From positions 310,001 through 374,000 of the forward strand of contig NZ_FOZK01000002.1 of the NCBI RefSeq assembly GCF_900114435.1: a stretch of 64,000 nt of DNA. The letters run 5' to 3'. The notes under the pieces are model-generated. The model was given only the letters and a program-made list of their open reading frames with translations, made no database searches and was not told where the DNA came from. Below, in pieces: positions 11,181-32,113 of this stretch. The translations under genes were made by a program, and so were the position numbers. Every line of letters begins with the position of its first letter. Within the stretch, counting starts at the first letter, position 1. Origin of the DNA: Halomicrobium zhouii. Lineage in GTDB: Archaea > Halobacteriota > Halobacteria > Halobacteriales > Haloarculaceae.

Positions 11181-11184
11181 CCTG

Positions 11185-13297: not shown

Positions 13298-13314
13298 TAC
13301 TCTCGGCGAAGTCG

Positions 13315-13560
13315 ATGAAGACAGGCGAAACGGAAGCGTTCGCGACCCGGCTCCCCGCTGCGGAAGCGGCACGCGTGCGAGACGCGGTCGATCAGACTAG
13401 TCTCTCCAGGTCGGACCTCCTCGCACGGGCGCTTCGGTACTACGTCGCAGAGAACCCGGACGGGATCCCTGCTTTCCACTCGGGCGACTCGGATACGGGC
13501 CCGCTGGAACAGGCAGGCATCCTACCCGCGGAACCCGAGAGTGACCAGGCCGGATTCTAG
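13315..13560 (+). CDS. Ribbon-helix-helix (CopG/Arc-type) protein upstream of integrase
   Basis: The ATG at 13315 gives 81 residues. The N-terminal 50 residues have the RHH pattern: a short strand (TEAFATRLP), a helix with RVRDAV, a turn with SRSDL and a second helix (LLARALRYYV). The rest is a flexible acidic tail. An upstream in-frame start at 13258 was rejected because the TATA box would then lie inside the gene. The integrase starts 22 bp after the stop, so the two are probably co-transcribed. It is likely a small DNA-binding regulator of the element or an excision-control factor. Confidence 0.7.
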   Translation: MKTGETEAFATRLPAAEAARVRDAVDQTSLSRSDLLARALRYYVAENPDGIPAFHSGDSDTGPLEQAGILPAEPESDQAGF

Positions 13561-13582
13561 GAGCCATAGCGCACCCAATCCA

Positions 13583-14634: not shown

Positions 14635-14996
14635 TCGACGAACGGGTGGTTAGTCCCTTAGCTATTGAGTCCTGTTCATGGAATGGATCATATGCGTTTG
14701 ATATCCATCACAATAGCCAAGTAATGTGGCCCATTCAAATCCATAGAAATTGACAGAATTTAGGTTCTGAATTCAGAATATGAATTTAGCACGGGAGCCG
14801 TGTTCAATTCACGTCGAGATATGGGACACACCTGTTCAGTAGACGTGCCGACCTCTCGCGTGAGGTTCTATATGTCGTCAGACTGGGGGACATTCTCGTA
14901 TTTGCCTCCCAGAATCCGAGCCAATACCCGGTTCAATCCTATCGAGTGGAGATTATCTGAATTTTCTCCCGGTTTCACGACCAGCAACTGAGTCCC
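14635..14996. other. Short gene-free region after the frameshifted integrase
   Basis: About 360 AT-rich bases separate the integrase remnant from the stop of the GHKL-DUF3883 gene. The palindrome tctgaattcaga occurs near 14768-14779. No gene is supported. Confidence 0.4.
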
Positions 14997-17900
14997 TCAC
15001 CGGTATTCGAAGCCGACATAGAACGAGCCGCCACGGAGCTTCTCCCAATACGGGTCGCCATCGGAATCGAAGTCCGTGTACGCCACGAAGTCCGTGATAT
15101 CGCGGAGTTCGATTCCGGAATCCCGAGTGTGCTGAGCATCCCAATTCGTCGGCAGTACCACTAACCGCAGTAGATAGCGGTCGACAGATTCGATACTGTC
15201 TTTTGCTCCGTGTTCGCCTAGTGTAGGACCAGGCCGCCTTGCCATTCGGAATTCGTTCCCGGTAAGCTTGATGCGCCCACTATCAGCACGATTCGGATGG
15301 ACTGCCTTCACTTCGACTCGTCGCATCGAATCAGGCCTCCAGTCGGTGTCGGCGTCCACCGACATGGGGAGACCGGCGAACGGATCGATGTAATCGAAGC
15401 CGGGCCCCCGTTCTGCAGAGGTGTCGAACACCGCATGAAACGCACGGCGCGCCGGTTCAGAATCCTCAACCTCGGAAGCACAGAGATACCGCCTGAGCAC
15501 CGACACAGTATCCTCCGAACTATTACCCGTCTCGAACTGGATGGTGAGCTTGTCGAGCGGCTTCAGCCGCCAGTTCTCGCAACTTCGCCAACGCTCCACT
15601 TCGTCGACGATAGCTTCTCTGCAGGTACTTGACGAGGTACGGAACCGGTCCCAGGCCCGGCTGAGACAAATGAGCTCAGCATCTCGACCACGGCCGTCTG
15701 AAATCTCTGCATTCTGGCGGCCGCTGGACTGTGTATCATTGATGCTTGGGGCCTGCATGTCGTCACCGGGTTCCTCTGGTTCAAATGTCGTGGACTCAAC
15801 ATTATCTTCGACGACGTCGTCGACTTCGTCGGCGTCGTTCGCCACCCAATCCAGGGTTTTCTTGCGGCGCTGGGATTGCTGGGACGGCGAACGCTGCCCC
15901 GCATCCTCACGTAGCGCTTCCTGGAGTACCTCTTGAATCTGGCCCTTGGCTTCCGATGGCGTTGCAACAGCGTCGATAAGGGACTCCACCTTCGAGAGGA
16001 TGTCCTGGTCTGTGGTTATCGAAGCGTCCCTGAGTGCCTCATACCGGTCTTGGCACCACTGCTCGACCGCCTCAATGATTGCCATAGGGACGATGTCGTC
16101 GTTCGATGCTTCCGACTCGATATCGAGGAGTTCGACGACGAACTGTGACCGAATGGACTGAGGGAGCTTCTCGCCATTCGGCACGATCTCGCCCACAGTG
16201 TCGAACGCGGAGGGCGGAGTCGCTTCCTCCACGGCCTGGAGCGCGACGACGATGGCATCATCGTTGATACGGTCCCGCCGGTCGAGCTGCGAGAAGAACG
16301 CCTCTACCTTTTCAACTGCATCGAGATACAACCGCAACTCGTCTATATCGCGAGACCCTCGTAAGGTTCTCAGCGAACGCCACTCGTCTTCATCCAGTAC
16401 CCTCTCCACTCCATCATACTCTCGGAGCAGCTGTGCAAGCTTCAGTTGCCGGGTGATATGGTCCTCTGCCGTTGCGGCTTCGATACACTGTTCCGGCGGC
16501 AACCCAACCGACTCAAGGACAGCCATCCACTCCTCGAGGAACGAGTGAGTGGAAGACTCGGGCGGGTTGGTCAATGCGTCGAGCGCCGCGCCGTGGTCGC
16601 CCACAATATCCGGTGGCGACGCCCCCGCATTTTGACTCCGAACGAGCGCCTCCAATGCCGAGTGAACCCGCTTGAGTTCCCGAGTCTCATAGTCTTCTCG
16701 ACTTTTTTCGATTTGTTCGATCGTGTCCTTATACTCCGCTCTTCCAACTTCGATCCCCTTCATGAGGATGTTCTCGAAGACATCACCCAGCCCATAGTTG
16801 TCGAGAATCTGTTCAAGCGCATCCGCAGCTAAGTACCGCGGAATCTCTTCTACTTGCCGCCAATCATCCACTGCCTCGGAATCAGAGCCATCGCTAGGAG
16901 CGTGCTCTTCGATGGCTCGCCCGTAAACCGCGATACGAGACGGCACACGACCGTCTTCACTATCAGGAATCCATTCAGCAGAGTTCCGGCCGGCCGTGTC
17001 TTCGACGTCCGCGACGCCGAGTGGACGGCTGAATAGCTCATCTAACGTCTCGTACGTCTCTTCGACGTTTGGATTGGTCGCCTGCTCCTTGTAGCCTGCA
17101 ACTAAGATTTCGTGGCGTTCGTTCAATGCCTGCTTCAAATCTTCTAACGCCTTATGTTCGGCGTTGGTCGGAAGGGTGTCGGCAGTCACGGATTCCAGCT
17201 CTGGGTTCTCTGACTGGACTGCGATTCCAAACGGCGGGGATGCAGACTCTGAATCATCAACTCCATCGCCGAGGATATCTGCGATGGCACTGGCTTCCTG
17301 TGCTGGCCGCTCGACGATTGCGACGGTCGCGTCCGGTGCCCGGTAGCGTTGGCGGGCGTACTGTCTAAGGTTCTCTTTGAAAATCGTAGGAACGATGTCC
17401 TGCGTCACCCCCGTGGAACCTGTTGACTCTCCCTTATCGCCGCTGATGGCAAAAACATAGGACTCGCCGTGCCACCGCACTGGCAGTCGAACTCCGAACT
17501 TCTTGATATCCCGGCGGATCCACTGGATTTGCTGGTCGTCATCGGAGACTCTGTGAGTAATGTGGGACATCGATTGCAGGCGTCGCATCAACGAATACAC
17601 TGGATCGATGTACTTCGATGCCGACCATTCACCGACTAACGGCTGAAGTCGCTCCGTCCCAACTTCGAATCGGGTAGACTGGCAGTCCGTGTGCTCATTG
17701 ACGAACCAGCTGAGTCGTTTCGCGGCTTCGGCAGGGGTCAGCGATTCGATAGGCCCGGCGGACAACTCGCCCAAGAGCCGTTGAACATCGGTTGCTTCGA
17801 TTGGGTTTACTCCCGCGACAGAATCGTTCGCCTGGTTTGATACCTTCTTGACGTCTGCTCGGGGGAGATACTGAGCAGCACCCCTTGCATCTTGTTCGGT

Positions 17901-20900
17901 TATCAACTGCGTCGCTTCGAGTTCCGGACCAACATCCAATTCGAGGTCGCCTTCGATCGGCCAGAGTGGACTAGTCCGGAGCTGGGCCATCCCTAACGCC
18001 GGGATAGTGTGGTGAGGACTACCCAGTTGGTGACTGTAGTACGGCCCATTACACAACCAAGCCGTATCCGCAATCGTTTCCTCCATTTCCGGCCAGACGA
18101 GGACCACTGCATCCCGGAACGCGCGTTGCTGCGACGCTGCTAATTCATCGTTCAATTCCGAAAAGTACCACCACGTCGGAATCGCCAAGTCACTGTGCTT
18201 CTTGTCCCATCTATCGACTCCGTTCTTGAGCCATCCTTCCTGACATCTCCCAGAATGACTTGCGCTGAACACGGGATGGTGCTCGGCTTGCCAACATAGC
18301 TGTCGATAGGTTTCGAGAAGGGGTTCTGGCGGATCAATCTGGGTGTCAGCATCAATCTCCACGTTCGACGGGTCCTTTGTGAGTTCTTGTACTGTCTCCA
18401 CTGATAATGCGCCGGTTCGCTGGTCGCTGTCGTCCAACCCTGGAAAGAGCCATCCCCACTCAATGTGGGGGCCGACCTGGACACCGAGGTGTAGCAGGAA
18501 ATCAACGAGCCAGCGATCCTGGCCCTCGTCGTGGCTGTCGACTTTATCTCTAATCGGCTGCCACCGGTCATCCTCCGGTGGCGCTAAAACAGGCGTCGTC
18601 TGCGACCGGAACTGGTCCGCGTGCTCAATCGCGCCAGCCCAGCGCCGCAGCGCCTCTACTCGTTCGGCTACCGCGTCCTCGTTGTTGTCGACGAACGGGC
18701 TGTCAGGCTCCGGTTTCCCCTCCACCCGTGTCGCAACGTCTTCGAATTTTGCGGCCCAATTGACACCAAAGACCAAATCTTCTGCCCGGTGATACCCTCC
18801 GTCTTCAGCCGGCAAGGGAAGCGACCGGACGTACCGGCGTTCGAGGAACTCTGTGTTCTCCGGTTTGGTCGTGAGTGGCTCACCAGTCAACAGGTTCTCG
18901 ACTTCATCGTAGCGGCGGTGATGATATGGTTCTGGAGCCAACCACTGCGCCGGGTTCGTATCGGCGATTCTCCGATACAGGTCCAAGAGGTACGCAATAA
19001 CCGGGTCCGGTTCGTCAACAGGGTCGGCTGAATAGCCGCCCGCATCTGCAGCAATCCGGAGATAGAACCCGGCCGGACTCTCGAGTTTCCGGGTCCCCCA
19101 CGCGTTATTGAAATTCGCCAACTCCCCTGCCCACTTTGCGACCGGAGGTATCACATATACCGGTAACTGTGATGGCGGTGCTGGAAGACGTGTGGTGGTG
19201 GATTCCTGGGCACCTCCCTCATCGGCAACTTCACGGCGAAACACGATGCGATCGTTTCGCCGGTGGCGTCCATCCTCGCTCTGTCCACGACTGGGTGACG
19301 CTCGAACCAGCCGAGTCACCTGTACGCCGGACTCTACTTGTCCGTCGGAGTCGTCGACTGCCTCTTGGCGTTCTGCCGGGAGTAACGGAACAGCGGCCGT
19401 ACCTAAGTTCTGTGCGGCATCCGTGATATTGCTGTCATTGTCGTCTCCGTCGTCTGTCCGATGCCGGTCGAACGCGTCGATTACAGCAGCGAAATACTCA
19501 GTCGCCAAATCTGAATCGTCGACGTCAACGTGCCACCAGTCGGATGACCGGTCACGCACCGATTCCGTCGAATCGAGTCCACCTGCTTCACACAGAATCG
19601 TCACCCAATCTGGACCATCCTGGGTGTCTGGAAGTCGATCAATAACGTCAGATAGCCCGATTGCAGAGAGGATGCTGCGAACCCGAGATTGGCGACTTTC
19701 GGGGAGGGCGCCGTGCCACATTTCGCCGTTCGCAATCGAGGATTCTGTTGGGAGCGGTGCGGCGGCCGTGTCGAACGCGTCTTGACGCAGTACCTCGAAC
19801 GCCGACAATCGTTCTGGCGCCAGCAATGTCTCCGTCGGCCGGAGCGTCCCACCAGCTGCCGCTGGAACCATCGGCGATTCCCGCAGCGCCGCTAATGTAT
19901 CTTCGACGAATTCCCTGACAAGTCTTCCCGCAGCCTCGTCGTCGCGATCCGAGGCTGGCTCCGTCACCGGCGCCATGACCCACGGCATCCACTCGTGAAA
20001 CAAGGGATGAGAATGCGAATACGTGCTGGATATCTCGTCCAGATCTGGGGGAGCAGCACAGTCTTCGGCAGCAGTGCCAATCAACTCTGGTAGTTTCTCG
20101 AGAAGGTCCTCGTTTTTGGCCTTGTCCGCGAGTTGCTGGCGGTCGAATCCAACTTCGAACGGGGCGTGGACGACGAACGGAAATGGTGTCGACGCCTCTG
20201 AAATCGGGTAATAGAGATGCAACGGCTCTGCTTGCTCTTCGTCGTCCCACCAGTCTGCTCCTGGTTGCGGCGCTTCACAGAGAACCCGGAGCTCCGAGGA
20301 GGCCTCCACATCGGCAGGCGTTGCAGTATCGCCGCCGAGCCACTCGTAGTCCTCTGGGTCAAGCGTCTCGGAGTACCGCCGAAACCAATGTGATTTGACG
20401 TTGCTCCCCGCATCACGCTCCTCAGTCACCCGCACGACCGAGCGCTGAACGTTCGAATCAGAATCGACAACCCCCTCGTCGGTCTCCAGAACTGAGAGCT
20501 TCCGCTGGTCTCGAAGCTCCAGGCCTTCAGTCGAAGAGTCGGTTCCGAATCTCAAGAATTCGATTTCCTCGATGTCCTCCAGAAGCACCAGTGTTGCAGC
20601 CGAAAACGACTCACACTCACGCCAGAGCTCGTCCTGTTGACTCGCCGATTCCGGCCCATCGAAGGTCGAGCTCTGGCGATTATCATCGAACTCGGCCGCT
20701 GCCGCCGAATCCTGTTGTTTGAGTTGCTCGTAGGTCCCGTCCAGTAAGCTGTTCCACAAGTCGTCATCATAATCGAGTTCGACGACACTCCGATACCGGC
20801 CGGCATGGGGGGTGAGTTGGTCTAATGCCGCATCGGTAACGTTGAGGGCTTCCCGTTCTGTGTCCCCCCCGTCAAGTAGCAACTCTGCAAGGTCGCGGCC

Positions 20901-21695
20901 AGGGCTCGCCGAGGTGAACCCATCAGTATCCGTGAATGGGTACCGGAATAGTGACAACCGCGGTAAATCCGCAAGTACCTGTGCTGGCTCCGGCGGCGTC
21001 GGTGGTTGGTCGGGCCGCTCGATCTCCAAGATTCTCTTAACATCCACGTTGTCGGAGACAGGTGCCTCAGAAGAATTCCGGAGTAACTCAGTAATAATCT
21101 GCTGGTATTCGCCGATCTCAGATGATTCAACTGCGTCCTCTATCTGTTGTCGGCGGTCGTCGTCGGAAAGAATCTGATTGTAGGCGTCCAGCAGCATCAG
21201 GACGCTGCGGCCTCTGGAGAACCGTGCCTCGATGCGATGGTTGTTCAGGACAGAGCGGATGGCGAACTGATCACCGCGCTGCAGAATCGATTTCAGTCCG
21301 ACACCTTTCTCGCCGATGGCGCCCTTATCCCTGGCTTTCTTCGAGCGGCCGAGCCCCGTAACCGCCTCGAAGACACCTTCGTCGTGTAGTTGGAACGGGC
21401 GGCCCGTGTTCGCGACGAGGAGGGCCTCCGGCGTGACGAGTACTGCTACGGATTGGGTTTCGGGAGTCGTCTCGTCGTCGCGAATCGCGTCTCTTGCGTT
21501 CTGAATCAGTTCGAGGACTGTTCGGTTCTCGTGTGTGGCGGCGACAACCTGGTCACCGATTCCGAGATCGCCTTCCTTGCTCCACCGCGTTTCGTTAGTC
21601 AGTTCAGCAATTAGCTCACTGTTTTCGTCACTGCACTTGTCGGCAAGTTGTTCTGAAGGTGTGTTAGTACTCACGGAGATTCTATTCCTGATCAC
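14997..21695 (-). CDS. Giant GHKL ATPase-DUF3883 protein, predicted defence nuclease
   Basis: This 2232-residue protein starts at GTG 21695. Residues 61-138 form a sacsin/Hsp90-type GHKL ATP site: LELIQNARDAI (N box, Glu62, Asn66, Asp69), VANTGRPF in place of the usual DNG box, and GEKGVGLKSIL (G2). A central region of about 1800 residues is helical and acidic without recognised domains. The C-terminus matches the DUF3883/NO VEIN pattern: GFDYIDP near 2099, VEVKAVH near 2127, then LTGNEFRMAR. The D...E-x-K spacing fits a PD-(D/E)XK nuclease fold. Proteins of this design occur in prokaryotic defence islands, and the integrase-flanked position beside a GmrSD gene supports that role. ATP-gated cleavage of invading DNA is inferred. 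Confidence 0.9.
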   Translation of the reverse strand: MIRNRISVSTNTPSEQLADKCSDENSELIAELTNETRWSKEGDLGIGDQVVAATHENRTVLELIQNARDAIRDDETTPETQSVAVLVTPEALLVANTGRPFQLHDEGVFEAVTGLGRSKKARDKGAIGEKGVGLKSILQRGDQFAIRSVLNNHRIEARFSRGRSVLMLLDAYNQILSDDDRRQQIEDAVESSEIGEYQQIITELLRNSSEAPVSDNVDVKRILEIERPDQPPTPPEPAQVLADLPRLSLFRYPFTDTDGFTSASPGRDLAELLLDGGDTEREALNVTDAALDQLTPHAGRYRSVVELDYDDDLWNSLLDGTYEQLKQQDSAAAAEFDDNRQSSTFDGPESASQQDELWRECESFSAATLVLLEDIEEIEFLRFGTDSSTEGLELRDQRKLSVLETDEGVVDSDSNVQRSVVRVTEERDAGSNVKSHWFRRYSETLDPEDYEWLGGDTATPADVEASSELRVLCEAPQPGADWWDDEEQAEPLHLYYPISEASTPFPFVVHAPFEVGFDRQQLADKAKNEDLLEKLPELIGTAAEDCAAPPDLDEISSTYSHSHPLFHEWMPWVMAPVTEPASDRDDEAAGRLVREFVEDTLAALRESPMVPAAAGGTLRPTETLLAPERLSAFEVLRQDAFDTAAAPLPTESSIANGEMWHGALPESRQSRVRSILSAIGLSDVIDRLPDTQDGPDWVTILCEAGGLDSTESVRDRSSDWWHVDVDDSDLATEYFAAVIDAFDRHRTDDGDDNDSNITDAAQNLGTAAVPLLPAERQEAVDDSDGQVESGVQVTRLVRASPSRGQSEDGRHRRNDRIVFRREVADEGGAQESTTTRLPAPPSQLPVYVIPPVAKWAGELANFNNAWGTRKLESPAGFYLRIAADAGGYSADPVDEPDPVIAYLLDLYRRIADTNPAQWLAPEPYHHRRYDEVENLLTGEPLTTKPENTEFLERRYVRSLPLPAEDGGYHRAEDLVFGVNWAAKFEDVATRVEGKPEPDSPFVDNNEDAVAERVEALRRWAGAIEHADQFRSQTTPVLAPPEDDRWQPIRDKVDSHDEGQDRWLVDFLLHLGVQVGPHIEWGWLFPGLDDSDQRTGALSVETVQELTKDPSNVEIDADTQIDPPEPLLETYRQLCWQAEHHPVFSASHSGRCQEGWLKNGVDRWDKKHSDLAIPTWWYFSELNDELAASQQRAFRDAVVLVWPEMEETIADTAWLCNGPYYSHQLGSPHHTIPALGMAQLRTSPLWPIEGDLELDVGPELEATQLITEQDARGAAQYLPRADVKKVSNQANDSVAGVNPIEATDVQRLLGELSAGPIESLTPAEAAKRLSWFVNEHTDCQSTRFEVGTERLQPLVGEWSASKYIDPVYSLMRRLQSMSHITHRVSDDDQQIQWIRRDIKKFGVRLPVRWHGESYVFAISGDKGESTGSTGVTQDIVPTIFKENLRQYARQRYRAPDATVAIVERPAQEASAIADILGDGVDDSESASPPFGIAVQSENPELESVTADTLPTNAEHKALEDLKQALNERHEILVAGYKEQATNPNVEETYETLDELFSRPLGVADVEDTAGRNSAEWIPDSEDGRVPSRIAVYGRAIEEHAPSDGSDSEAVDDWRQVEEIPRYLAADALEQILDNYGLGDVFENILMKGIEVGRAEYKDTIEQIEKSREDYETRELKRVHSALEALVRSQNAGASPPDIVGDHGAALDALTNPPESSTHSFLEEWMAVLESVGLPPEQCIEAATAEDHITRQLKLAQLLREYDGVERVLDEDEWRSLRTLRGSRDIDELRLYLDAVEKVEAFFSQLDRRDRINDDAIVVALQAVEEATPPSAFDTVGEIVPNGEKLPQSIRSQFVVELLDIESEASNDDIVPMAIIEAVEQWCQDRYEALRDASITTDQDILSKVESLIDAVATPSEAKGQIQEVLQEALREDAGQRSPSQQSQRRKKTLDWVANDADEVDDVVEDNVESTTFEPEEPGDDMQAPSINDTQSSGRQNAEISDGRGRDAELICLSRAWDRFRTSSSTCREAIVDEVERWRSCENWRLKPLDKLTIQFETGNSSEDTVSVLRRYLCASEVEDSEPARRAFHAVFDTSAERGPGFDYIDPFAGLPMSVDADTDWRPDSMRRVEVKAVHPNRADSGRIKLTGNEFRMARRPGPTLGEHGAKDSIESVDRYLLRLVVLPTNWDAQHTRDSGIELRDITDFVAYTDFDSDGDPYWEKLRGGSFYVGFEYR

Positions 21696-21701
21696 CAGAC
21701 A

Positions 21702-22160
21702 CTATCCGCTTTCCAATAAAATGTGGCGGCCGAATACGAAATCGAGAGTGTCGAAACTGATTTGGCCCCGTTTGGAACGGCTGATGTGTACTTCTGCGGC
21801 CAGCCATCCATCCTCGCTAGCACCAACGAGGACGGGCAGCACCAACTGATGGACCGGTTGCTCATGGACGCGCCCACTGATGTCCGCACCGACGAGGATA
21901 TCCGGCGTCTCGAAGACTGCACCATCGGCGTGTATCGATCCCGTGATTGCGGCACCATCGAGCAGAAGCGGCACCTCAACGGTGGCCTTCGTAAGGACGA
22001 CATCGTCATCGATGACCGCGCCTCAACCATCGATGGGCTCACCAGTCGCCGTCGTGGTGGTCTCGTCCTGAAGATCGAGGCTAGGAAGCCGTCCCCCCGC
22101 AAATACCAAGGCTGCATCGCTGTCCGTGAGTGTCTGCAGGAATTGATCGGTGATCCGTCT
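21702..22160 (-). pseudogene. Remnant with bactofilin-like beta-helix repeats
   Basis: On the minus strand one frame reads as a good protein: DAALVFAGGRLPSLDL, then GEPIDG, an in-frame TGA near 22030, and then GAVIDDDVVLTKATVEV and LLLDGAAITGSIHADGAVF up to a stop at 21702. Short repeated strands with Gly-Ile/Val spacing resemble polymer-forming bactofilin-type beta helices. The stop codon and the lack of an upstream start mark it as broken. An antisense frame of similar length (21723-22190) is Arg-rich and poor, and was rejected. Function is uncertain. Confidence 0.45.
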
Positions 22161-22186
22161 GTACTAAACGATTCGTCGTCGTCCGC

Positions 22187-22360
22187 CTAGCCGACCAGGA
22201 CCTGATCCACCGGCCACGAAAAGAGCCCGTCGGCGACACCGCCTTCCACACTGTGCCGCTGTCCGGGGTACGAGGACTTTATCAAAACCATAATCTCGGT
22301 CGAGCAGAACACCAGTACAAAGCCTGCGAAGAGTGCGATGATCGGGTCGCGCGGTCAGGT
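22187..22360 (-). pseudogene. Fragment of a membrane protein
   Basis: A minus-strand frame ending at a TAG at 22187 contains a hydrophobic segment (PIIALFAGFVLVFC) followed by a polar tail ending in DQVLVG. Upstream it is interrupted by stops. It may be the other half of the neighbouring beta-helix remnant, since some haloarchaeal proteins combine such repeats with membrane segments. The support is weak. Confidence 0.25.
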
Positions 22361-22604
22361 TGAAGATTCTCCACATATCTGCGCTCAGGCAGGCGTGCAA
22401 CCGCCGGCTGGCCCACGATACAAAAACCATAATGAGATGAGGCATCCAAAGGGGACTCGGTACCACTGAGCCGAACTATCAAAGGCGGCCGCTCGATAAT
22501 CTTAGCTCGATGATTTCAGCACTGAGTTCCTATGTGCACTCCCTCTTGTAACCTATATGTAGCTATCCAATTATATTACCACCATTAGTTATTTCTCGTT
22601 GTCC

Positions 22605-22610
22605 AAGGAG
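22605..22610 (+). promoter_or_regulatory. Shine-Dalgarno of the GmrSD gene
   Basis: aaggag lies eight bases before the GTG at 22619 and fixes that codon as the start. Most genes in the window lack such a site, in line with leaderless haloarchaeal mRNAs. Confidence 0.55.
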
Positions 22611-22618
22611 TCTTACGT

Positions 22619-25192
22619 GTGACCCAGCTTTCTCAAGATCATCGATTGGAGGAGTTCGAAACCTCCTCGGGAACAATCCTCGAAGCATTAGATATTACTG
22701 ACGAATCTTGGTTTCAAGTTATCAAAAATCGGTCCTTCAGAGTCCCGGAATACCAAAGAAATTACTCTTGGGGGGATACTCAACGAGACGAATTCTGGTC
22801 AACGTTAAAACGAAATTTTGTCGATCTTGGACCGCTTCCTTCTGATCTTGATGAGATGGATCTTTCAGGCCTGTACATGGGGGCAGTATACATCGCTGTT
22901 CCAGGACCGGAAGACGAGCAAGAAAAACTCGATATCGTCGATGGACAACAGCGTTTTGCTTCCTTCCAACTATTGATTAAGGCCCTCAATGACAACATCC
23001 TTAGTCTAAAAGAAGAGGCTCGAGATCAAGGAAAACATGATCTCGTTTCGGAGCTTACGGAGGTAGAGGTAAAACTCGAAAAGGGATACTCTGGGACCGA
23101 ACCCTCAGTAAAACTGAATTCAGAAGACCGGGAATTTTTCGCAGCATTAGCAGCATATCCAGAAAACTGGTACATTGATGTCCGTGATTTTCTAGTTGAC
23201 CAGATTGATAAACACCCAGACATAACAGGCAGAAACCGACCTAGGGCTAAGACTATTGAGGAACTCGCTGAGGCTATTCAAGAACCGATCCAATTCAACG
23301 GAGATGACAATCTCACAGACGATTCGGCATTTGAAGCCGATAAGGATGGAGACGAAGATGCGAAACTCGGGAAACACGTCCGGTTCCTCAATTCGCACGA
23401 ACGAATGTTGGAGGCATACAGTGAAGCCTACGAGTTGATAGAGACTCTCCAAGATGAAGAGACAAATGGAGAGCTGGCTCAACGAGCTTATATTACGATG
23501 AACTTTTCCTCTTTCGTTCTTCATGCGATTGCGGTCGATCGGTGTTTAATTACGGAGCCGAACCCCGACCTGCGGCTTGACATTTTCCAATCGATAAACG
23601 ACAAGGGGCTCGCATTACACGATGTAGACAAAATTAGAGCTCGAATCAAACACCGTCTAGTTGGCTCAGGATCAAGTGGGGTAATGGAGGAATGGCGGGA
23701 AACACTTGCTCGGTTTGATGGTGACAAAGATGATATTAAAGAGATGCTGAAGTACTTTGTCGCTGCAAAAGAAGACAGCGTGAATAAGATTTCGGAAGCA
23801 AACAATGCAGTCATGCAAGTCTTTGACCGGTCCACACCAGAGAGGTCGAATGTCACACCATTGCTGACGCAGGATAATGCTGAAAACCTCGTGACCGAAG
23901 TCTCAACGTATTCCAAGTACTATGATGATCTCTATCAGTGTGAGTTCAACCACTTTGACCGATCGATTGATGATAACAATCGGAAAGAAGTAAAACGGAT
24001 ACTCAACCGTGTAGGCAAAAAAATTGAAGCAGAACAGTGGCAGGCACTTGGTCCGTTTGTGTATATGATGGTAGACCAAGGTGCACCGGAGGACTATGAC
24101 GAAGAAGATATTGGGAATTTCTTATTTGAGGTGTTTGATGCCATTGAGGTTCTTACCCTCCGGCAATCGATTAGCGACCACAGTGGGGAAGCTATCGAGG
24201 GAGTCTATGTCAACGCTGTCCAAAACTTCAATAATCGGTCTTCGGATCAATTCGACGCCACCAAGATTGTCTTAGACATTGTCGAGGATGCGAGCAATCA
24301 GACAGAGGACCTCTTCGAAGATGGAATGATTTATCATGCCGTAAAGAACCGTAATTGGACTTCTAGTGACCTAGGGCGGTGTATCCTTCAACGTACGACA
24401 AGTAGATATCTTAAGGAAGAAGATATGGGACTCGAGGTTCGAGACTACTCAGATGTCGATGTTGAGCACATTCTTCCACAAACACCTATCTCCGATGAGG
24501 CAGGGAGAAGTGCCTCAAGTTCGGAACCCGGGAAATATGCCTGGTTAGACTACTTCTTCCGGGTTAACGAGACTGATGAAGACTCACAGATCGCACAGGC
24601 TATAAAAGTACTAAAGGATCAAAGTATCTCGTCTCTACAGGCAAGCGATGTAGATTCGGACGATCTTGGAGATGAGGTTAACGAAGATGAGATACTAAAC
24701 ATCCAAGAGGAGGTATTCAAGCGATTCGTCGATGATATCGCAAATCTTCTAATTCTAGTTAATCAGGACAACCAAGAGTTAGGGAACAAACTTCTCTCCA
24801 AAAAATTACCTGTGTACTGGAGGGATACCTATATCAAAGTAATTATCAATGATTTCTTTAGCAATGAAGAGAATTCGCCGTTTATCGAATCGGAATATGT
24901 CAATCTTGATACGGGTGATGTCGACGAGATCAGGGGGGAGGATCACCTTTCCGACGATATTGCAGAGCAAGTGGATCGTTCGTGGACTTACGAAGTAATG
25001 TTTGAGCGTAAGGTGGACATGGTTCACCAGATATTGAAACGACTTACGTTCAATCTTGAGCCAGATAGCTCGGGTGGAGACAGAGATGAATCCGTTGGGG
25101 TCGACAAAAGCGAGTTCGATGGGCTCAGAGACCAAATTAAAGCTGCCGTAGACGATGATCGTGAACGGCGAATATCCCGTCGGAACTTCTAA
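22619..25192 (+). CDS. GmrSD-type type IV restriction endonuclease (DUF262-DUF1524)
   Basis: This 857-residue single-chain protein begins at GTG 22619. Residues 42-51 (VPEYQRNYSW) and 106-112 (IVDGQQR) are the signature of the DUF262 ParB/Srx-like nucleotide-binding domain. Residues 615-621 (VEHILPQ) are the His-containing core of the DUF1524 HNH nuclease domain. Together these define GmrS and GmrD fused, as in BrxU and SspE. Such enzymes cut modified (glucosylated or phosphorothioated) DNA using NTP. The gene uses many AT-rich codons and is visibly lower in GC than the genes on either side, which suggests recent transfer. It stands alone between a degraded region and the right-hand integrase. 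Confidence 0.92.
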   Translation: MTQLSQDHRLEEFETSSGTILEALDITDESWFQVIKNRSFRVPEYQRNYSWGDTQRDEFWSTLKRNFVDLGPLPSDLDEMDLSGLYMGAVYIAVPGPEDEQEKLDIVDGQQRFASFQLLIKALNDNILSLKEEARDQGKHDLVSELTEVEVKLEKGYSGTEPSVKLNSEDREFFAALAAYPENWYIDVRDFLVDQIDKHPDITGRNRPRAKTIEELAEAIQEPIQFNGDDNLTDDSAFEADKDGDEDAKLGKHVRFLNSHERMLEAYSEAYELIETLQDEETNGELAQRAYITMNFSSFVLHAIAVDRCLITEPNPDLRLDIFQSINDKGLALHDVDKIRARIKHRLVGSGSSGVMEEWRETLARFDGDKDDIKEMLKYFVAAKEDSVNKISEANNAVMQVFDRSTPERSNVTPLLTQDNAENLVTEVSTYSKYYDDLYQCEFNHFDRSIDDNNRKEVKRILNRVGKKIEAEQWQALGPFVYMMVDQGAPEDYDEEDIGNFLFEVFDAIEVLTLRQSISDHSGEAIEGVYVNAVQNFNNRSSDQFDATKIVLDIVEDASNQTEDLFEDGMIYHAVKNRNWTSSDLGRCILQRTTSRYLKEEDMGLEVRDYSDVDVEHILPQTPISDEAGRSASSSEPGKYAWLDYFFRVNETDEDSQIAQAIKVLKDQSISSLQASDVDSDDLGDEVNEDEILNIQEEVFKRFVDDIANLLILVNQDNQELGNKLLSKKLPVYWRDTYIKVIINDFFSNEENSPFIESEYVNLDTGDVDEIRGEDHLSDDIAEQVDRSWTYEVMFERKVDMVHQILKRLTFNLEPDSSGGDRDESVGVDKSEFDGLRDQIKAAVDDDRERRISRRNF

Positions 25193-25444: not shown

Positions 25445-26443
25445 TTAGAGGTTCTCTAAGTATCCGCGCCGCTGTTCCAGTTTCACCTCCTCAGAACGCT
25501 TGTCGTAGTGCTTGTCGAGGATGTCGCGGCTGACGTTCATCCTGTCGCCGATGACCTCGACGGGGACGTCTTTGGTCAGTGCGTGCGTGATACTCCCGCG
25601 GCGGATCGCGTGTGGACTCACGGCTTCCCCGCACTTTTCGCTCTCCGTGCCAGCACATTCGGGACACGGTTCACCTCTGAAGCACGGTGAGGTCACGCGA
25701 TAGACGCACCTCCGCATCGCGGTTTTCGAGAGGCGACCGTAGCGACTGGTAAACAGCGGCTCCCGGCCGGCGTCGTCGGTGTTCTCGATCCGAATGTTCT
25801 CGATGTACTGGGAGAGAACTTCCGCTAGATTCGACGTAATCGCGACGGGGCGCTCGCCGTTCGCGCCGTTCTTCAAGTGTGTCCCCTGGTCGGGCCGGTG
25901 AACGATCTCGATCGCTTCCTCTTCGAGGTGGAGGTCGCCGAGGTCGAGCGAGTTAGCACCGCCGAGTCGCATCCCGGTCTCCCAGAGCAACGCAAACAGG
26001 GCGTGGTCGAGCGACGCGTAGTTGAACGTCGAGAGGTGGTCTAGGATCTCCGAGGCCGGCTCGGACGACAGCGTCTCGTCTCGCCGCTCTTCCGCGGGCG
26101 TGACTCGCGGGACCATCACCTTGTCGTAGAGATTCGCGGCGACGGCTTCGATGGAGCCGGCCCACTTGAGGAATACCCTGATGGTACTCATCTGCTGATT
26201 CAGTGTGATCTTCGCGAGGTCGCCGGTGTCCTCCCGCCAAAGGCGGTATCGCTGAATGCTCCGGCCGGTCAGGGCGTTCATGTTGTCGATGTCGTTCAGG
26301 TCGCACCACTCGACGAACGGCTTCGTCCGGTAGCGGTGGGCCTGGACGGTCTTCACCGAGTACTGGCTCGCCTTGTGGTCGAGAAACAGTTCCTGTGCTT
26401 CGCGCGGTTCGATGGGTTCGAGATCTGTGGGGTTCGTGCTCAT
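25445..26443 (-). CDS. Tyrosine recombinase/integrase, complete
   Basis: The ATG at 26443 gives 332 residues; an upstream extension to 26536 is Arg-rich and unlike the family. Catalytic residues are all in one frame: Arg159 (GMRLGG), Lys191 (HLKNGANGE), His278 and Arg281 (PHAIRRG), His287, and Tyr313 (LDKHYDKR). A cysteine cluster (Cys254, 260, 263, 271) precedes the second box and may bind zinc. It is a paralogue of the frameshifted integrase at 13583 and faces it across the GHKL and GmrSD genes. It may therefore be the active recombinase for that segment. Confidence 0.92.
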   Translation of the reverse strand: MSTNPTDLEPIEPREAQELFLDHKASQYSVKTVQAHRYRTKPFVEWCDLNDIDNMNALTGRSIQRYRLWREDTGDLAKITLNQQMSTIRVFLKWAGSIEAVAANLYDKVMVPRVTPAEERRDETLSSEPASEILDHLSTFNYASLDHALFALLWETGMRLGGANSLDLGDLHLEEEAIEIVHRPDQGTHLKNGANGERPVAITSNLAEVLSQYIENIRIENTDDAGREPLFTSRYGRLSKTAMRRCVYRVTSPCFRGEPCPECAGTESEKCGEAVSPHAIRRGSITHALTKDVPVEVIGDRMNVSRDILDKHYDKRSEEVKLEQRRGYLENL

Positions 26444-26559
26444 GGTAGTCACGGAACCCCGCGAAACAGGCTGGCGCGCGCGAACCCGGAAGTGAAGGGA
26501 TCGTACGGGGTGGGAAGATGTCCCGCCCGGACCCACTCAGTTGACGGATGGACCTATTC

Positions 26560-26678: not shown

Positions 26679-27830
26679 TTACTCCCATCCGAATATGGAT
26701 TCGTACTCAGCGTGTACATCGAGGATGCGCCGAACGCTCTCAGCCGGGTTCTTCGTGCGCAGCTCATCGAATTTTTGCACTTCTTCTCTGACTATACCGC
26801 GTGACACGTCGGCGTCGGACATCAGGAGCTCCACCCACACACGAGTCTCCTTGACTGAAAGTGAGTGCCCAGTTGCGATGATGCAATCATATGCGGCTCG
26901 GACATCGTCCGTTTTGTTGAACACTCTTTGCAGTTCAGCGATAGCTGAATACGAGAGTCCGTCTTCCTCATACTCCCGTTCAGGAAACATCTCGTAAACA
27001 CTCTCTGAACGCTCGATTTGAAGGGCGCTTGCCCCCTTGACCTCAGTTTTCTCGGCAATCTCCTCGTAGGAGAGTCCGGACTTGACTCGAGCCCTGCGGA
27101 AGATCCGTCCCCACTCCCACTTCTGCGTGACGCCCATGTAATCGTCTTTGACCTCCTGAATTTGTTGCGCTAGTTGCTCAAATGAAACCTCTGCTGTGTC
27201 GTCGAATAAAGGGTCAGAATATTCTTGGTCCGTAGCCTGTCGAGTCTCTAAGGTCCTGTGATGGGTACAGCGTACTTGCTGCTGCCCGACATCTGTGACA
27301 CTACAGTTGACAACGAGTGCTTCGTCTGGAGCCCCTTCAATACAAACACGCCGCCCATCTACGAGGCTCGTTTCACCGCTTCGCAGTCCACCGAAGGTCA
27401 ACTGGTCACCTCTGTCGATGGAATCAAAGCCAAACAGTTTCTGATGCACCTTGATGAAGCGCACCCCTGGACCAAGGTCTTCAGTACTGGGAGTGATGAG
27501 CGATCGATCGCGAAACTGGTGGAAATATTCGTAGCCATAGGCAGAGTCGTCGTGCGCGACGATGATTTGGTGGTCGTCTTTGAGGCCCAACCAGCCTGAA
27601 TCGAACCCCCAGTGACAGCGCCGGCACAGTAGCAATCCGTTCATCTCCCTATCTGGGCCTCCATGCTGGGCCGGGTGAATGTGTGCAGCTTCAGTCTCCG
27701 GGTGCCCAAACGGAGATTCGTGCCGTTGGCGGCATATCGCACAACGGTTCGAGTATAAGTCCCGAAGGTTCTGCCTCGTGTTGGAGGAGAACTCTTCTGA
27801 ATACCTACTAACCGTCCAGTCTCCAGCCAT
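26679..27830 (-). CDS. HNH endonuclease with C-terminal helix-turn-helix region
   Basis: The ATG at 27830 gives 383 residues; a TTG four codons upstream is possible. Residues 30-75 form a complete McrA-like HNH site with two zinc Cys pairs: RCAIC (Cys30, Cys33), AHIHPA (His50, His52), GGPDREMNGLLLC with Asn64, and CRRCH (Cys69, Cys72, His73). Residues about 75-210 are alpha/beta and unassigned. From about 235, a helix-turn-helix-like segment (SYEEIAEKTEV) suggests sequence-specific binding. The architecture fits HNH restriction enzymes. No methylase is adjacent. Its placement next to the integrase and between 22-bp direct repeats suggests it came as cargo. Confidence 0.85.
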   Translation of the reverse strand: MAGDWTVSRYSEEFSSNTRQNLRDLYSNRCAICRQRHESPFGHPETEAAHIHPAQHGGPDREMNGLLLCRRCHWGFDSGWLGLKDDHQIIVAHDDSAYGYEYFHQFRDRSLITPSTEDLGPGVRFIKVHQKLFGFDSIDRGDQLTFGGLRSGETSLVDGRRVCIEGAPDEALVVNCSVTDVGQQQVRCTHHRTLETRQATDQEYSDPLFDDTAEVSFEQLAQQIQEVKDDYMGVTQKWEWGRIFRRARVKSGLSYEEIAEKTEVKGASALQIERSESVYEMFPEREYEEDGLSYSAIAELQRVFNKTDDVRAAYDCIIATGHSLSVKETRVWVELLMSDADVSRGIVREEVQKFDELRTKNPAESVRRILDVHAEYESIFGWE

Positions 27831-27907
27831 ACGCCACCCCAAGAACCCGACAGTTCATATATTGCTCGAGGACGTTCCCGACCGAATCACCAATCCCGCT
27901 ACCACTT

Positions 27908-27929
27908 TGATGTATTGGTAGATAACGGA
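27908..27929. repeat. 22-bp direct repeat, right of HNH gene
   Basis: This is the second copy of the repeat at 26560-26581 (19 of 22 identical). It lies 78 bp upstream of the HNH gene start and could also contain promoter elements. Confidence 0.4.
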
Positions 27930-28065
27930 ATTGCAATCCAAAGGAGGGGCTGCTCTAACTGTCGTGGCTGCGCGCGCAGCGGAGCGAGCACGGAGCGGAG
28001 GGCGGGGAGGTGGGGTCTGGGTCAGTCTGGCACAAGAAAAAAGAAACCGCGCTAGTCGCCTACTT

Positions 28066-28163
28066 CACCACTGTCCCCGTTCCGGGAAGTGGACTTCCGA
28101 CCAGCCCGTGAGCGCTATCGAGCAACGGCCCTGGTACCAGTTCTTCGCTGCCGCCCTGAATCG
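28066..28163 (-). pseudogene. Detached 3' end of an RPA-like gene
   Basis: These 98 bp match 29483-29580 at 94 positions and encode the last 33 or so residues of the RPA-like protein (from RVRFRAAAKNWYQG to ERGQW), ending in a stop at 28065. The 5' part of the gene is absent here. It lies beyond an HNH homing-type gene, as expected if that gene had inserted near the end of the RPA gene and supplied a new 3' end. Confidence 0.75.
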
Positions 28164-28308
28164 CACCCGCTTTCCCTTCATGAATAATGGCTTGTCAGAA
28201 CCTCCGCAAAAGGCGCTTGTAGAAACAGGAAATGGGTGAGTTGTTTCGGTAGACAACAGATTACGGATCAGAATTTCGACGAACTAGAGATCCGTAATCC
28301 AGTCTGTT

Positions 28309-29274
28309 TTAGAGATGTCGAGTGTCTGGTCGTAGAGGCGCGATCCGCTCCCAGATAATGTGGTGAACGGTACAGACCGTGACGAGATTGCTCAAGCTAT
28401 TCGCTCGCTGGAAATCTACTGACCCACAAGACCGTTCGAAGCTGGCTAATGGTACGATGTGATGCACATGAATATCGTGTCCGAATCGCTCGATGTGTGA
28501 CTCGCGGGTTGTGCTACATTCTGGGGTTTGACAAATGAAGTCATCTCGCTGGATCGCTTTCTCCCGTAGCCGATTCCAGTTCGGACCGTAGTACTGATTA
28601 TCTCGGCCACCCCTCCAACGTGGATTATCCTCTCCTGAGGGCCATCCTCGGGGTTCGAACCCCGCCTCTCTCACAGCGTCGTGCCACCCATCAAATTCTC
28701 GAAAGTAGCCCCGAACAGAGTACTTGCCCCGGTCTTTCAGATCGTTCGTTGATGGGGGATGACCAAGAACATCTGAAAGTCGTCGGATTTCGGCCAAGAG
28801 GTCTTCTCGCGGAATCTGTTTGATCTTATTGGGCTTGTACCCAGCAGCCACTAGGGCATCATTCCACGAACCAAACTTCGACTGAGCAACGTCGACAGAA
28901 TACTGTCCTTCGGAACTCATATCCGCTACCGTAGGGACCTGCCCCAGTTCTGCAGCTACCCTCTGAATCTCCTGGATTATATCATCTCGCGAGAGCTCAT
29001 GATAATGGACAGGTGTTAACCCGGCAGCTCGGAGGCCGGCGTTCCACGAACCAAATCTCTTCCTTACTGTCATTGGTGAGTATCGACCTTCTCGATCCAT
29101 ATCCTCCGAAGTTGGAACCCGACCTATTTCGTCGAACAGACGCTGGACCTCGGCAATCAGTTCATCTCGTTCGATTTTGATCCGATGGCCGTTTTTGTGA
29201 CCACCGAATTTCGCGGGTGTTTCGAACGTCTCTCCACAGATGTCACATTGATAGCGAGCATTTTCTGGCGTCAT
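28309..29274 (-). CDS. Homing-type HNH endonuclease with C2H2 finger and three HNH-associated repeats
   Basis: The ATG at 29274 gives 321 residues. Residues about 8-31 form a C2H2 finger (CDIC, then HKNGH). Three tandem repeats of about 55 residues follow. Each has a helix, a PT/PS turn, a YS motif and a closing FGSWN or FDGWH helix ending in AAGL, AAGY or EAGF; this is the homing-endonuclease-associated repeat (HNH_repeat). The C-terminal HNH site is HVHHIVPL, then NLVTVCTVHHIIWE. All are DNA-binding modules, so the protein should recognise a long site. The gene lies between an intact RPA-like gene and a duplicate of that gene's 3' end. Confidence 0.9.
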   Translation of the reverse strand: MTPENARYQCDICGETFETPAKFGGHKNGHRIKIERDELIAEVQRLFDEIGRVPTSEDMDREGRYSPMTVRKRFGSWNAGLRAAGLTPVHYHELSRDDIIQEIQRVAAELGQVPTVADMSSEGQYSVDVAQSKFGSWNDALVAAGYKPNKIKQIPREDLLAEIRRLSDVLGHPPSTNDLKDRGKYSVRGYFREFDGWHDAVREAGFEPRGWPSGEDNPRWRGGRDNQYYGPNWNRLREKAIQRDDFICQTPECSTTRESHIERFGHDIHVHHIVPLASFERSCGSVDFQRANSLSNLVTVCTVHHIIWERIAPLRPDTRHL

Positions 29275-29475
29275 TTCATTCTCGAGGGCACGAAGTGACG
29301 CCCTCGGTCCTTGAGGGCGAGAAAAAACAGATGGCAGAACGAGCAACTGACCATTAAATCGGTTAACGGTTAGAGAAGATTATCCGGCAATATCCGGCTA
29401 ACACTAACGAGAAACGACCTTCGCACTCCTCTACGGGAGAATGCGAATTCCAACCTTATGGGGGTGGTTCGTGAC

Positions 29476-30315
29476 CTACCTCCACCACTGCCCCCGTTCC
29501 GGGAAATGTACTTCCGACCAGCCCGTAAGCGCTATCGAGCAACGGCCCTGGTACCAGTTCTTCGCTGCCGCCCTGAATCGGACGCGTTCACCTTCCTCGA
29601 CCATCGGCTGCGCGCTCTTTTTCCAGCTGGTGAACTTGGTTCGTCCGCTCTCGTCTTCGATCAGCCCGACCTGCCGAATCGCTCGGGAGGAGGGTGTCCA
29701 AAGTTGGGTAACGCGCCCCTCAACGGTCACCTCGCTGCGATCGACGTTCTCTATCTGGTCGATCGGCACGATGACACCTGCTTCGTCGCGAATCAACTCG
29801 ATTACCTCGACGACTGCGTCCAGGACGTCCATTCCATCTGCGATCCGCTCGGCTAACTGCCGCGATATCGCCGCTCTCGTCATACCACCGTGTTCCTCCG
29901 TCAACCTCGCCGCCTGCTCGTTCACCGTCGAGAGTTCCGCCTGTGTGAGTTCCGCCCGGGGATCTTTCCGGTCCGGGTCAGCCCACTGGTCCACGCCCGC
30001 TCGTCGATGCTCGAACTCCTGCCGTCGTTCCACGCTACCCGCCTTCGCCAGCTGACGCGATCGTCCTTCCCGGCTCGATTCTTGCCGACTGTCCCACCGC
30101 TCGTGGGTTCGTTCGATCTCCCACTCTCTCGCTGCCAGCTTCTCTTCCGCCGCCAGCGTCAACCCCGTCCGTCCAGCGTCCGGGTGATTCGTGTCGACCT
30201 TCCCCTGTTTCTCCTGTTCGACCGACCGCCGCAGTTCCGGCTCTTCGGAAACCGCATCGTCGGGCTCTCGTTGTTCAACCAATTCTTCAAGTCGAATGGC
30301 GTTGTTAGTGTTCAT
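29476..30315 (-). CDS. RPA-like single-stranded DNA-binding protein (OB fold)
   Basis: The ATG at 30315 gives 279 residues. The longer open frame upstream is Arg/Ser-rich and non-coding in character. Residues 1-135 are highly charged and probably helical or disordered. Residues 193-274 are a single OB fold of the haloarchaeal RPA type: EVTVEGRVTQLW, VGLIEDESGRTKFTSW, GERVRFRAAAKNWYQGR and SIALTGWSEV. There is no zinc finger. Such small RPA paralogues are common on haloarchaeal plasmids and integrated elements and coat ssDNA during replication, repair or transfer. Its last 98 coding bases are duplicated at 28066-28163 beyond the HNH gene. Confidence 0.85.
   Translation of the reverse strand: MNTNNAIRLEELVEQREPDDAVSEEPELRRSVEQEKQGKVDTNHPDAGRTGLTLAAEEKLAAREWEIERTHERWDSRQESSREGRSRQLAKAGSVERRQEFEHRRAGVDQWADPDRKDPRAELTQAELSTVNEQAARLTEEHGGMTRAAISRQLAERIADGMDVLDAVVEVIELIRDEAGVIVPIDQIENVDRSEVTVEGRVTQLWTPSSRAIRQVGLIEDESGRTKFTSWKKSAQPMVEEGERVRFRAAAKNWYQGRCSIALTGWSEVHFPERGQWWR
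29483..29580 (-). repeat. Direct repeat: 3' end of RPA-like gene, in-gene copy
   Basis: This segment lies inside the intact RPA-like gene and matches 28066-28163 with four mismatches. The distance from start to start of the copies is 1417 bp, which defines the size of the putative inserted unit carrying the HNH gene. Confidence 0.75.
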
Positions 30316-31036: not shown

Positions 31037-32113
31037 ATGCAGACCACCGAGTACGAACTCCGCGACCGAATCGACCAGCTAGCCAACTACCGCGGCGAGG
31101 GCACCGAACTCGTCACCGTCGCTGTCCCGCCAGACAAGTCACTCCGAACAGTCCGCGAACGCATCGACCGCGAGCACGCACAGGCCGAGAACATCAAATC
31201 CGACCGGACACGAACCAACGTCCAGGACGCCCTCGGGCGGATCCGACGGCACCTCCAGGCATACGATCAAACACCACCGAACGGCCTCGTCGTCTACGCA
31301 GGCGTCGTCGACGATGAACTACAGGACGCCGTCTTCGACGACCTCGACCGGCCAGTCGACGTCTCGATCTACCGCTGTGCGGCCGAATTCGAGACCACAC
31401 CGGTCGAACAGGCACTCACCCCGTCGACGGTGTACGGCCTGGTCGTCCTCGAGCGGGGTCGCGCCGCCTTGGGCCGCCTCGCCGGCGAGCGAATCGTCGA
31501 CACTCGAACCATCGAGAGTCAGGTGATGGGCAAGTCCCGCGCGGGCGGCCAGAGCGCACAGCGGTTCGAACGCGAACGCGACCGCCAGAAACACGAGTTC
31601 TTCACGCAGGTCGCCGACGCCGTCGAAGGGACGTTCCGCGACGAGCCCACCGTCGATGGCCTCGTCCTCGGCGGCACGACGATCACCGTCGACGAGTTCC
31701 AGCGGGGGGACTATCTCCACCACGAGCTACGGGATCGCGTCCTGGGCGTCTATCCGGTCGAGTACGCGACCGAGCAGGGCCTTGCACAGCTTGTCGAGCG
31801 CGCTGAGGACGTACTATCCGATGCTGCATACCGACGGGAACGGGAAGCCCTCGACCGGTTCTTCACCGCACTCGGCCGGGATGGCGACGTCACCTACGGC
31901 ACTGATGCAACGCGAACCGCTCTCGACTACGGCGCTGTCGACGTTCTCCTCGTCGCCGACGCACACCCACCCGAGACAATCCGCGAGCTGGAGGCAGCGA
32001 CGACCGACCAGGGAGGTGAGTGTCTCGTCGTGTCGACCGATACGGACCGCGGTGCCCAGTTCGAGACCGCATTCGGGGGTCTCGGCGCACTCCTCCGGTT
32101 TCCGATCGACTAA
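31037..32113 (+). CDS. aRF1-family release-factor paralogue lacking the C-terminal zinc mini-domain
   Basis: This 358-residue protein has the aRF1/eRF1 layout. Domain 1 carries NIKS (52-55) and the YxCxxxF motif (YRCAAEF, 112-118) that read stop codons. Domain 2 carries GGQ (170-172, GKSRAGGQSAQRFE), which triggers peptide release. Domain 3 includes DEFQRGDYLHHEL and ends with FGGLGALLRFPID. Haloarchaeal aRF1 is about 415 residues. The difference lies in domain 3, where the Cys-rich zinc mini-domain between the DVLLVADA strand and the ECLVVSTD strand is absent. All known functional motifs remain, so it may release peptides or act in ribosome rescue. Its setting beside RPA and mobile genes suggests an accessory copy. 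Confidence 0.9.
   Translation: MQTTEYELRDRIDQLANYRGEGTELVTVAVPPDKSLRTVRERIDREHAQAENIKSDRTRTNVQDALGRIRRHLQAYDQTPPNGLVVYAGVVDDELQDAVFDDLDRPVDVSIYRCAAEFETTPVEQALTPSTVYGLVVLERGRAALGRLAGERIVDTRTIESQVMGKSRAGGQSAQRFERERDRQKHEFFTQVADAVEGTFRDEPTVDGLVLGGTTITVDEFQRGDYLHHELRDRVLGVYPVEYATEQGLAQLVERAEDVLSDAAYRREREALDRFFTALGRDGDVTYGTDATRTALDYGAVDVLLVADAHPPETIRELEAATTDQGGECLVVSTDTDRGAQFETAFGGLGALLRFPID

Follow-up and report, generated by a model that had tools for sequence, protein, structure and literature searches.

An HNH endonuclease gene that lies behind an RPA-like gene of Halomicrobium zhouii appears to have brought with it a replacement for the 3' end of that gene, and the old 3' end has been left downstream. 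We consider it likely that the unit is a homing element built on a freestanding HNH endonuclease, which spreads through the repair of breaks and in doing so substitutes the end of the gene it targets. In this reading, cleavage, the repair route and allele-specific resistance are inferred; the comparisons below establish the polarity of the insertion, the existence of empty sites, the mobility of HNH genes between RPA alleles, the clustering of fragment starts and one sharp chimeric junction.

All coordinates refer to the window, the 64,000-nucleotide stretch that was analysed from this 4.25-Mb genome (G000). On its minus strand, an intact RPA-like gene (29476-30315) is followed by the HNH gene (28309-29346) and then by a detached RPA 3' end (28059-28177). 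The RPA-like gene encodes 279 amino acids, with OB-fold and replication factor A matches; matches to this family are also found in plasmids. The sequence-only reading of this DNA had claimed that the 3' end of the gene is present twice, and self-comparison of the window bore this out: 28066-28163 and 29483-29580, offset by 1417 bp, are identical at 94 of 98 bases. The repeat is even longer than claimed, extending without gaps over at least 116 nt (28063-28178; 104/116 identical), and the next-best place for it in the 64-kb window, on both strands, matches at only 52/116. As the same reading had it, one copy is the 3' end of an intact RPA-like gene and the other lies detached beyond an intact 345-aa HNH ORF; relative to the gene, the detached copy has a 1-nt deletion near its end. 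Rfam scans gave no match for the insert region (27800-29800) at E<=5 and none for six relatives at E<=1, so that no group I/II intron or other structured RNA family is recognisable in the insert of the window or of these relatives.

The unit lies in a varied neighborhood. An aRF1-type release factor gene (31037-32113, plus strand) is divergent from the RPA-like gene, and just beyond the displaced fragment is a second HNH gene of another kind (26679-27842, minus strand), with a weak resemblance to phosphorothioated-DNA-binding restriction enzymes. Outside the HNH unit there is also an integrase gene (25445-26536), and 8952-25192 is a defence-like region. Its products include a pair of cytosine methyltransferases, a TmtA-like protein of 2232 aa and a protein of 857 aa that matches the HEC-06/Orf5/SspE models.

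Which of the two copies is native can be read from loci without the insertion. The same genome also carries an uninterrupted RPA paralogue (L005), and uninterrupted relatives (L006, L008) are found in other genomes of the genus. After the stop codon, all three carry the sequence that in the window trails the detached fragment. Thus, window positions 27983-28062 match L005 at 68/82 and L006 at 71/82, whereas the flank after the stop of the intact copy matches them at only 22/79 and 24/81, respectively. Because the empty-locus flank matches that of the detached copy and not that of the intact copy, the detached piece (28059-28177) is the old native 3' end, still joined to its native downstream flank (27983-28058), and the present 3' end of the gene (29476-29594) arrived with the HNH unit. 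This polarity supports the earlier suggestion of a unit that carries an HNH gene plus a replacement 3' end and leaves RPA intact. The left limit of the donor DNA is not resolvable in the window; the new RPA tail has diverged no further than the remainder of the gene, and the putatively donor-derived tail is indistinguishable from native sequence by divergence.

The same arrangement of intact RPA gene, HNH gene and displaced end is found in HArc-gm2 (a single locus listed as L002, L010 and L153). The flank that follows the RPA stop (29347-29475) is specific to the unit, its stop-proximal part matching HArc-gm2 at 41/43 and being unlike that of empty loci. The right end of the unit runs from the HNH stop to the displaced fragment (28178-28308, minus strand, as are all features of the unit), and at this inner junction positions 28169-28204 are 35/36 identical to HArc-gm2 and 17/36 to an empty locus; blastn homology of the displaced fragment to the empty locus reaches weakly to 28199. 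From the shared arrangement and junction, we infer that the insertion is common to the window and HArc-gm2. The native flank matches behind the HArc-gm2 fragment at 71/83 over 27983-28062, and similarity between the two loci ends at window position 27958. The two RPA 3' copies of HArc-gm2 are only 83/98 identical to each other, and the displaced fragments of the two loci are 85/98 identical; therefore, the 94/98 identity within the window probably reflects later gene conversion (homogenisation) there and not the age of the duplication. Near the presumed break, the intact HArc-gm2 allele matches the empty L005 at 35/36, so no protective recoding relative to L005 is visible there. L005 survives uninterrupted in the window genome and HArc-gm2 shows no protective change near the break, which leaves either an old, inactive unit in the window or a resistance that is located elsewhere.

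The HNH protein combines a C2H2 finger, for which the match is weak, with three copies of the 'homing endonuclease associated repeat' PF18780 (E 2.4e-63) and a C-terminal HNH region; the domain search gave no LAGLIDADG or intein match. HNH Pfam models match the relatives only weakly; the HNH columns H295, H296, N316, N320, H328 and H329 are invariant over 18 relatives. The number of PF18780 repeats in the family ranges from 2 to 5. A structure model of the protein was modest (pLDDT 74.6, pTM 0.31), with the HNH endonuclease 5h0m as the best fold match (prob 0.99, E 0.077), and only the HNH part matched plausibly. The first 28 residues have low confidence in the model, and the true start is probably the ATG at 29274 (residue 25). 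The gene is under purifying selection, with a dN/dS of 0.26 between the window and HArc-gm2 and of 0.05-0.26 over the pairs tested. A viral scan for HNH relatives returned distant relatives only.

Among the HNH relatives that a search of 293 genomes of the order found, all 25 loci L009-L033 are directly preceded by an RPA-like gene in the same orientation; five HNH loci with lower scores (L034-L038) lack one within 1.5 kb. When species genomes were scanned, each of the 26 best HNH matches (L153-L178) lay just downstream of an RPA-like gene, as does L181, for a total of 27 of the 29 loci L153-L181. Tandem HNH clusters at RPA were not seen among these 29 loci; the one locus with two HNH genes, L179, lies away from RPA. 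After removal of sequences found in both sets, there were 43 occupied loci (28 + 15), including the window itself (L009), two identical loci (L016, L017) and two that hold partial HNH genes (L140, L143). RPA loci without the HNH gene, which the sequence-only reading had proposed to look for, were found in number: of 137 RPA loci analysed, 28 were occupied by HNH and 109, including the L005 paralogue, were empty, with no HNH close behind. These loci are not a random sample, being the best-scoring places listed, 80 of which were added beyond the loci already in the set. The comparisons of RPA loci left out L067, which is identical in position with L021, as well as L041 and L043, whose RPA genes are of other types, and skipped as duplicates L001, L002, L007, L039, L040, L042 and L044; the control comparison for pairs of the L024/L026 type also left out L017 and L055.

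Behind the HNH gene, 18 of the 28 occupied RPA loci (most of L011-L030, plus L032, L033 and L084) carry a small zinc-finger ORF, ending like CPVCGKVGLPERIQQHRC, which the window does not have. Two loci, L123 and L124, hold decayed HNH remnants, and there the zinc-finger ORF also survives as a remnant. A special recoded C-terminus of the RIHGAA/GRVS type, considered as a mark of HNH-linked RPA genes, was rejected because many genes without HNH have it too.

A displaced RPA 3' coding tail is present in 7 of the 43 occupied loci and absent in 36. The sequence-only reading had proposed a search for further HNH-repeat genes bounded by RPA 3' fragments; beyond the window and HArc-gm2, such fragments were found in Halorubrum trapanicum (L015), genome G289 (L020), Haloferax gibbonsii (L031), Halobellus rufus (L155) and Natrarchaeobius chitinivorans (L162). 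Tails occur in 5 of 28 occupied loci, versus 1 of 75 empty loci for which 2.5 kb or more of downstream sequence was available (Fisher p 0.005), or in 4/26 versus 1/75 when independent events are counted (p 0.015). The sole empty locus with a tail among those 75, L116 (also L316, G240:C2), has its RPA tail duplicated across a 1.5-kb insert without an HNH remnant; by eye, the ORF in this insert is RidA-like. The tails of L015, L031, L155 and L116 start inside the codons for FPERGRWW, at about -24 to -31 as judged by eye and at -25 to -42 under a looser rule. If starts were uniform, four of them would fall within 18 nt of an 860-nt gene with a probability of ~4e-5, and within 8 nt with ~3e-6. The tails of the window and HArc-gm2, L020 and L162 start at about -110 to -140. 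The choice of site seems to go with the native allele type, as inferred from the nearest empty alleles.

Flanking DNA at two of these loci is also native. In L031, the native end resumes at about -24 after the HNH gene, and the flank is 95.6% identical over 1261 bp to the empty locus L097; in L015, the flank matches L144 at 89.7% over 783 bp, a similarity that extends into the following gene, by eye a TFB gene. The inserts at loci flanked by empty-site sequence are small, 1.4-1.9 kb, and several kilobases of other DNA separate HNH gene and remnant in L155 and L162. Repeats that involve only the flank (+22 to +80; L016-L018, L021, L022) were rejected as evidence for a unit: they are weak evidence because the flank sequence recurs further downstream in HNH-less loci (L106, L119, L120, L122, L083, L070). 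The empty locus L150 has only a short match on the opposite strand.

The clearest chimeric gene is that of L031, whose RPA has a single mismatch to an empty allele of the same genus (L081) over the 200 positions from -240 to -40, followed by 8 mismatches in the last 40 nt (p 2.5e-6); these last 40 nt match another empty allele, L094, at 38/40. The length of donor RPA varies from ~40 nt in L031 to ~560 nt in L015 and, in L155, to at least most of the gene as far as it is visible. For L024 and L026, a unit boundary at about -25 in RPA was discarded after a three-way comparison with the empty relative L008, which moved it to about +100. Tail and flank are native-like up to that point, so the units of this group bring no RPA coding sequence with them. 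The RPA genes of L015, L018 and L020 are mosaic, and haloarchaeal RPA-like genes are in general numerous and highly mosaic.

HNH genes can be nearly identical where the adjoining RPA genes are not. The HNH proteins of L024 and L026 are 98% identical at the amino acid level, versus 60% for RPA, and the corresponding identities are 94 versus 57 for L011/L015, 87 versus 53 for L032/L084 and 82 versus 56 for L016/L018. Between the window and HArc-gm2, dS is 0.19 for HNH and 0.39 for RPA. The two genes thus have incongruent histories, and the HNH gene moves between RPA alleles. HNH and RPA distances correlate only weakly (r about 0.2), and a Mantel test over 25 loci of the order, without L140, L143 and the duplicate L017, gave no sign that HNH and RPA are inherited together more closely near the RPA 3' end.

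A mirror-image case came from a direct-repeat test of 38 HNH loci meant to lie away from RPA; L181, which is at RPA, was included, and L183 was skipped for short flanks. Repeats at L036 and L179 led to gene X, which encodes 360 aa without a Pfam match, and the rest, apart from L180, were short or scattered. In L180, a 60-bp direct repeat (88%), around 4890-5970, flanks another HNH gene whose target was not identified. Four loci (L308, L310, L311, L179) have an HNH gene of a different subfamily (H2) upstream of gene X. Directly before the H2 gene is a truncated native 5' end of X that ends at GAYCTYCCGCAG, about codon 46; the end comes a few nucleotides later in L179, and L310 and L311 are one base off the motif. 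Upstream of the truncated end, three of the four loci, L310 being the exception, match empty X loci (mean 77-81%, up to 98%), whereas upstream of intact X the same three are unlike them (means 37-45%, maxima 63-70%). The intact X copies of the four loci resemble each other; therefore, the whole X gene may travel with the unit, perhaps together with a second HNH gene behind it. Genes of this third HNH type (H3) follow X in all four loci as well as in L309. Isolated 3' fragments of gene X in G190:C3, G109:C102 and G018:C3 all begin at residue 290-298 and are perhaps another class of displaced ends, linked to H3. The gene X case speaks for a habit that is general to the HNH family.

We propose that the HNH protein would recognise the 3' end of RPA-like genes that lack the unit and would cut there, a cleavage that is inferred. 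The 5' side of the break would then copy the donor allele by homology, taking in the donor RPA 3' end, the flank and the HNH gene, along with, in many units, the small zinc-finger ORF. The new strand would be joined to the other side of the break by end joining or by homology to the old 3' end or flank, a route that is likewise inferred. The outcome would be an intact chimeric RPA gene with the HNH gene behind it and the old 3' end of the recipient pushed downstream, starting near the break. Points against this homing reading are the 36 of 43 occupied loci without a tail, the units of L024 and L026 that bring no RPA coding sequence, the weak correlation of HNH and RPA distances without a rise toward the RPA 3' end, the tail without HNH in L116, the uninterrupted L005 in the window genome, the lack of visible protective recoding in HArc-gm2, the undiverged new tail of the window and the weakness of the flank-only repeats.

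The arrangement could instead have come about by ordinary rearrangement, with a tandem duplication of RPA or plasmid recombination followed by a deletion that left a 3' remnant, and with the HNH gene as a bystander. The number and mosaicism of haloarchaeal RPA-like genes fit this explanation, as do the HNH-less remnant of L116 and the long intervening DNA of L155 and L162. We nevertheless judge it improbable, because the fragment starts are clustered, empty sites flank small inserts, remnants are in excess beside HNH genes and the gene X loci share one break point in mirror image. The clustered starts and the long native flank in Haloferax (95.6% over 1.26 kb) likewise disfavour the tandem duplication with later deletion that had been named as the outcome that would refute the earlier reading.

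Two further explanations have much less room. Replacement of a 3' end is a known result of site-specific integration, and an integrase gene lies near the unit, so a tyrosine recombinase, since lost or acting in trans, might have inserted an element at the 3' end of RPA that carried the HNH gene as cargo. Yet there is no integrase within the 1.4-kb unit, and visual inspection of the ORFs in the L015 insert revealed none; the nearby gene is outside the unit, beyond the point where similarity to HArc-gm2 stops (27958), and the duplicated ends, 24-140 nt long and diverged, are unlike an identical att core. Integration of this kind is thus very unlikely, and WHO elements and mORFs are closer precedents than the integrases at tRNA genes to which the sequence-only reading drew a likeness. 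It is just as hard to sustain that the HNH gene is not selfish but a simple vertical neighbour, kept in a conserved operon with the RPA-like gene for some cellular role. Its constant position and orientation behind RPA and the purifying selection on it would suit such a role, but 109 of the 137 RPA loci do without it, HNH identity reaches 98% where RPA identity is 60%, and decayed or partial copies exist (L123, L124, L140, L143).

Several known systems bear on the homing reading that we prefer. Inteins and intron-borne nucleases splice themselves out. Freestanding HNH and GIY-YIG homing endonucleases of phages, in what is called intronless homing, are standalone genes next to their target that spread by break repair, and in the usual models the gene moves by means of flanking homology alone. 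Integrative elements at tRNA genes, guaA and prfC supply an intact gene 3' end and rely for this on a tyrosine recombinase and on an identical att core; the haloarchaeal unit shows no recombinase and no such core, its repeats being diverged. The haloarchaeal genes meet the traits of freestanding HNH homing endonucleases in their HNH residues and DNA-binding modules and in their presence or absence at a homologous site. They have a displaced target end, which does not figure in the available part of a description of phage intronless homing (PMC10448857).

Closer likenesses are found in eukaryotes. According to the accessible portion of Coughlan et al. 2020 (PMC7282813), WHO elements at FBA1 of Torulaspora and Lachancea yeasts replace the 3' end of their target at each homing and were proposed as a third class of homing elements beside inteins and intron-borne nucleases. 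As there described, they share with the haloarchaeal units an endonuclease gene behind the target, a replaced 3' end with old 3' fragments downstream, many fragments that begin at about one position, a chimeric target gene and a zinc finger domain in the endonuclease (PMC7282813). The differences, on the same partial basis, are that WHO endonucleases are LAGLIDADG/intein-derived and act in yeast nuclei, with allele-specific cutting demonstrated and tandem clusters, whereas the haloarchaeal units have HNH proteins with PF18780 repeats, archaeal hosts, other targets, no cutting data, no tandem clusters at RPA among L153-L181 and a second group that acts at a gene's 5' end (PMC7282813). Among WHO traits tested, those met are the replaced 3' end with an old fragment downstream, common fragment starts (in two clusters) and a target gene with two histories. 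Differing histories of the target end are supported by the sharp switch in L031 and the mosaic genes of L015, L018 and L020, but RPA is mosaic in general and the Mantel test gave no gradient. A LAGLIDADG/intein-derived endonuclease and tandem endonuclease clusters behind the target were not met. In mORFs of fungal mitochondria (atp6, atp9, cox2 and nad3 in Glomus; atp6 in Allomyces), as given in the part of Beaudet et al. 2013 available (PMC3630166), an endonuclease ORF likewise comes with a foreign C-terminal end, the native C-terminal piece is displaced and the host gene stays in frame; the endonucleases are LAGLIDADG or GIY-YIG and the genomes organellar, whereas the haloarchaeal units are HNH-based and lie in archaeal genomes (PMC3630166). 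Thus, the archaeal units work like WHO elements and mORFs but are not WHO members, because their nuclease belongs to the HNH and not to the LAGLIDADG type and none of the loci L153-L181 at RPA is a tandem cluster.

In titles and abstracts of open-licence papers, we recognised no paper on such end-replacing elements in archaea or bacteria. The layout itself is known from yeasts and fungal mitochondria; what is new here is that the hosts are archaea, that the nuclease is of the HNH family, that other genes are targeted and that there is a 5'-end variant. We put forward only tentatively, at a confidence a little short of even, that haloarchaeal HNH genes with PF18780 repeats are a prokaryotic class of end-replacing homing elements, independent of WHO elements and mORFs, whose zinc finger and 2 to 5 repeats would address a conserved stretch at a gene end and swap in a resistant copy, at the RPA 3' end and, in mirror image, at the 5' end of gene X; cleavage and resistance remain inferred, and such elements would help to drive RPA mosaicism. 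That archaea show this layout with an unrelated nuclease suggests a strategy that arises repeatedly. The haloarchaeal units give tractable microbial examples, of which Haloferax carries a clean one, and they offer a cause for the mosaic evolution of a family of single-stranded-DNA-binding genes.
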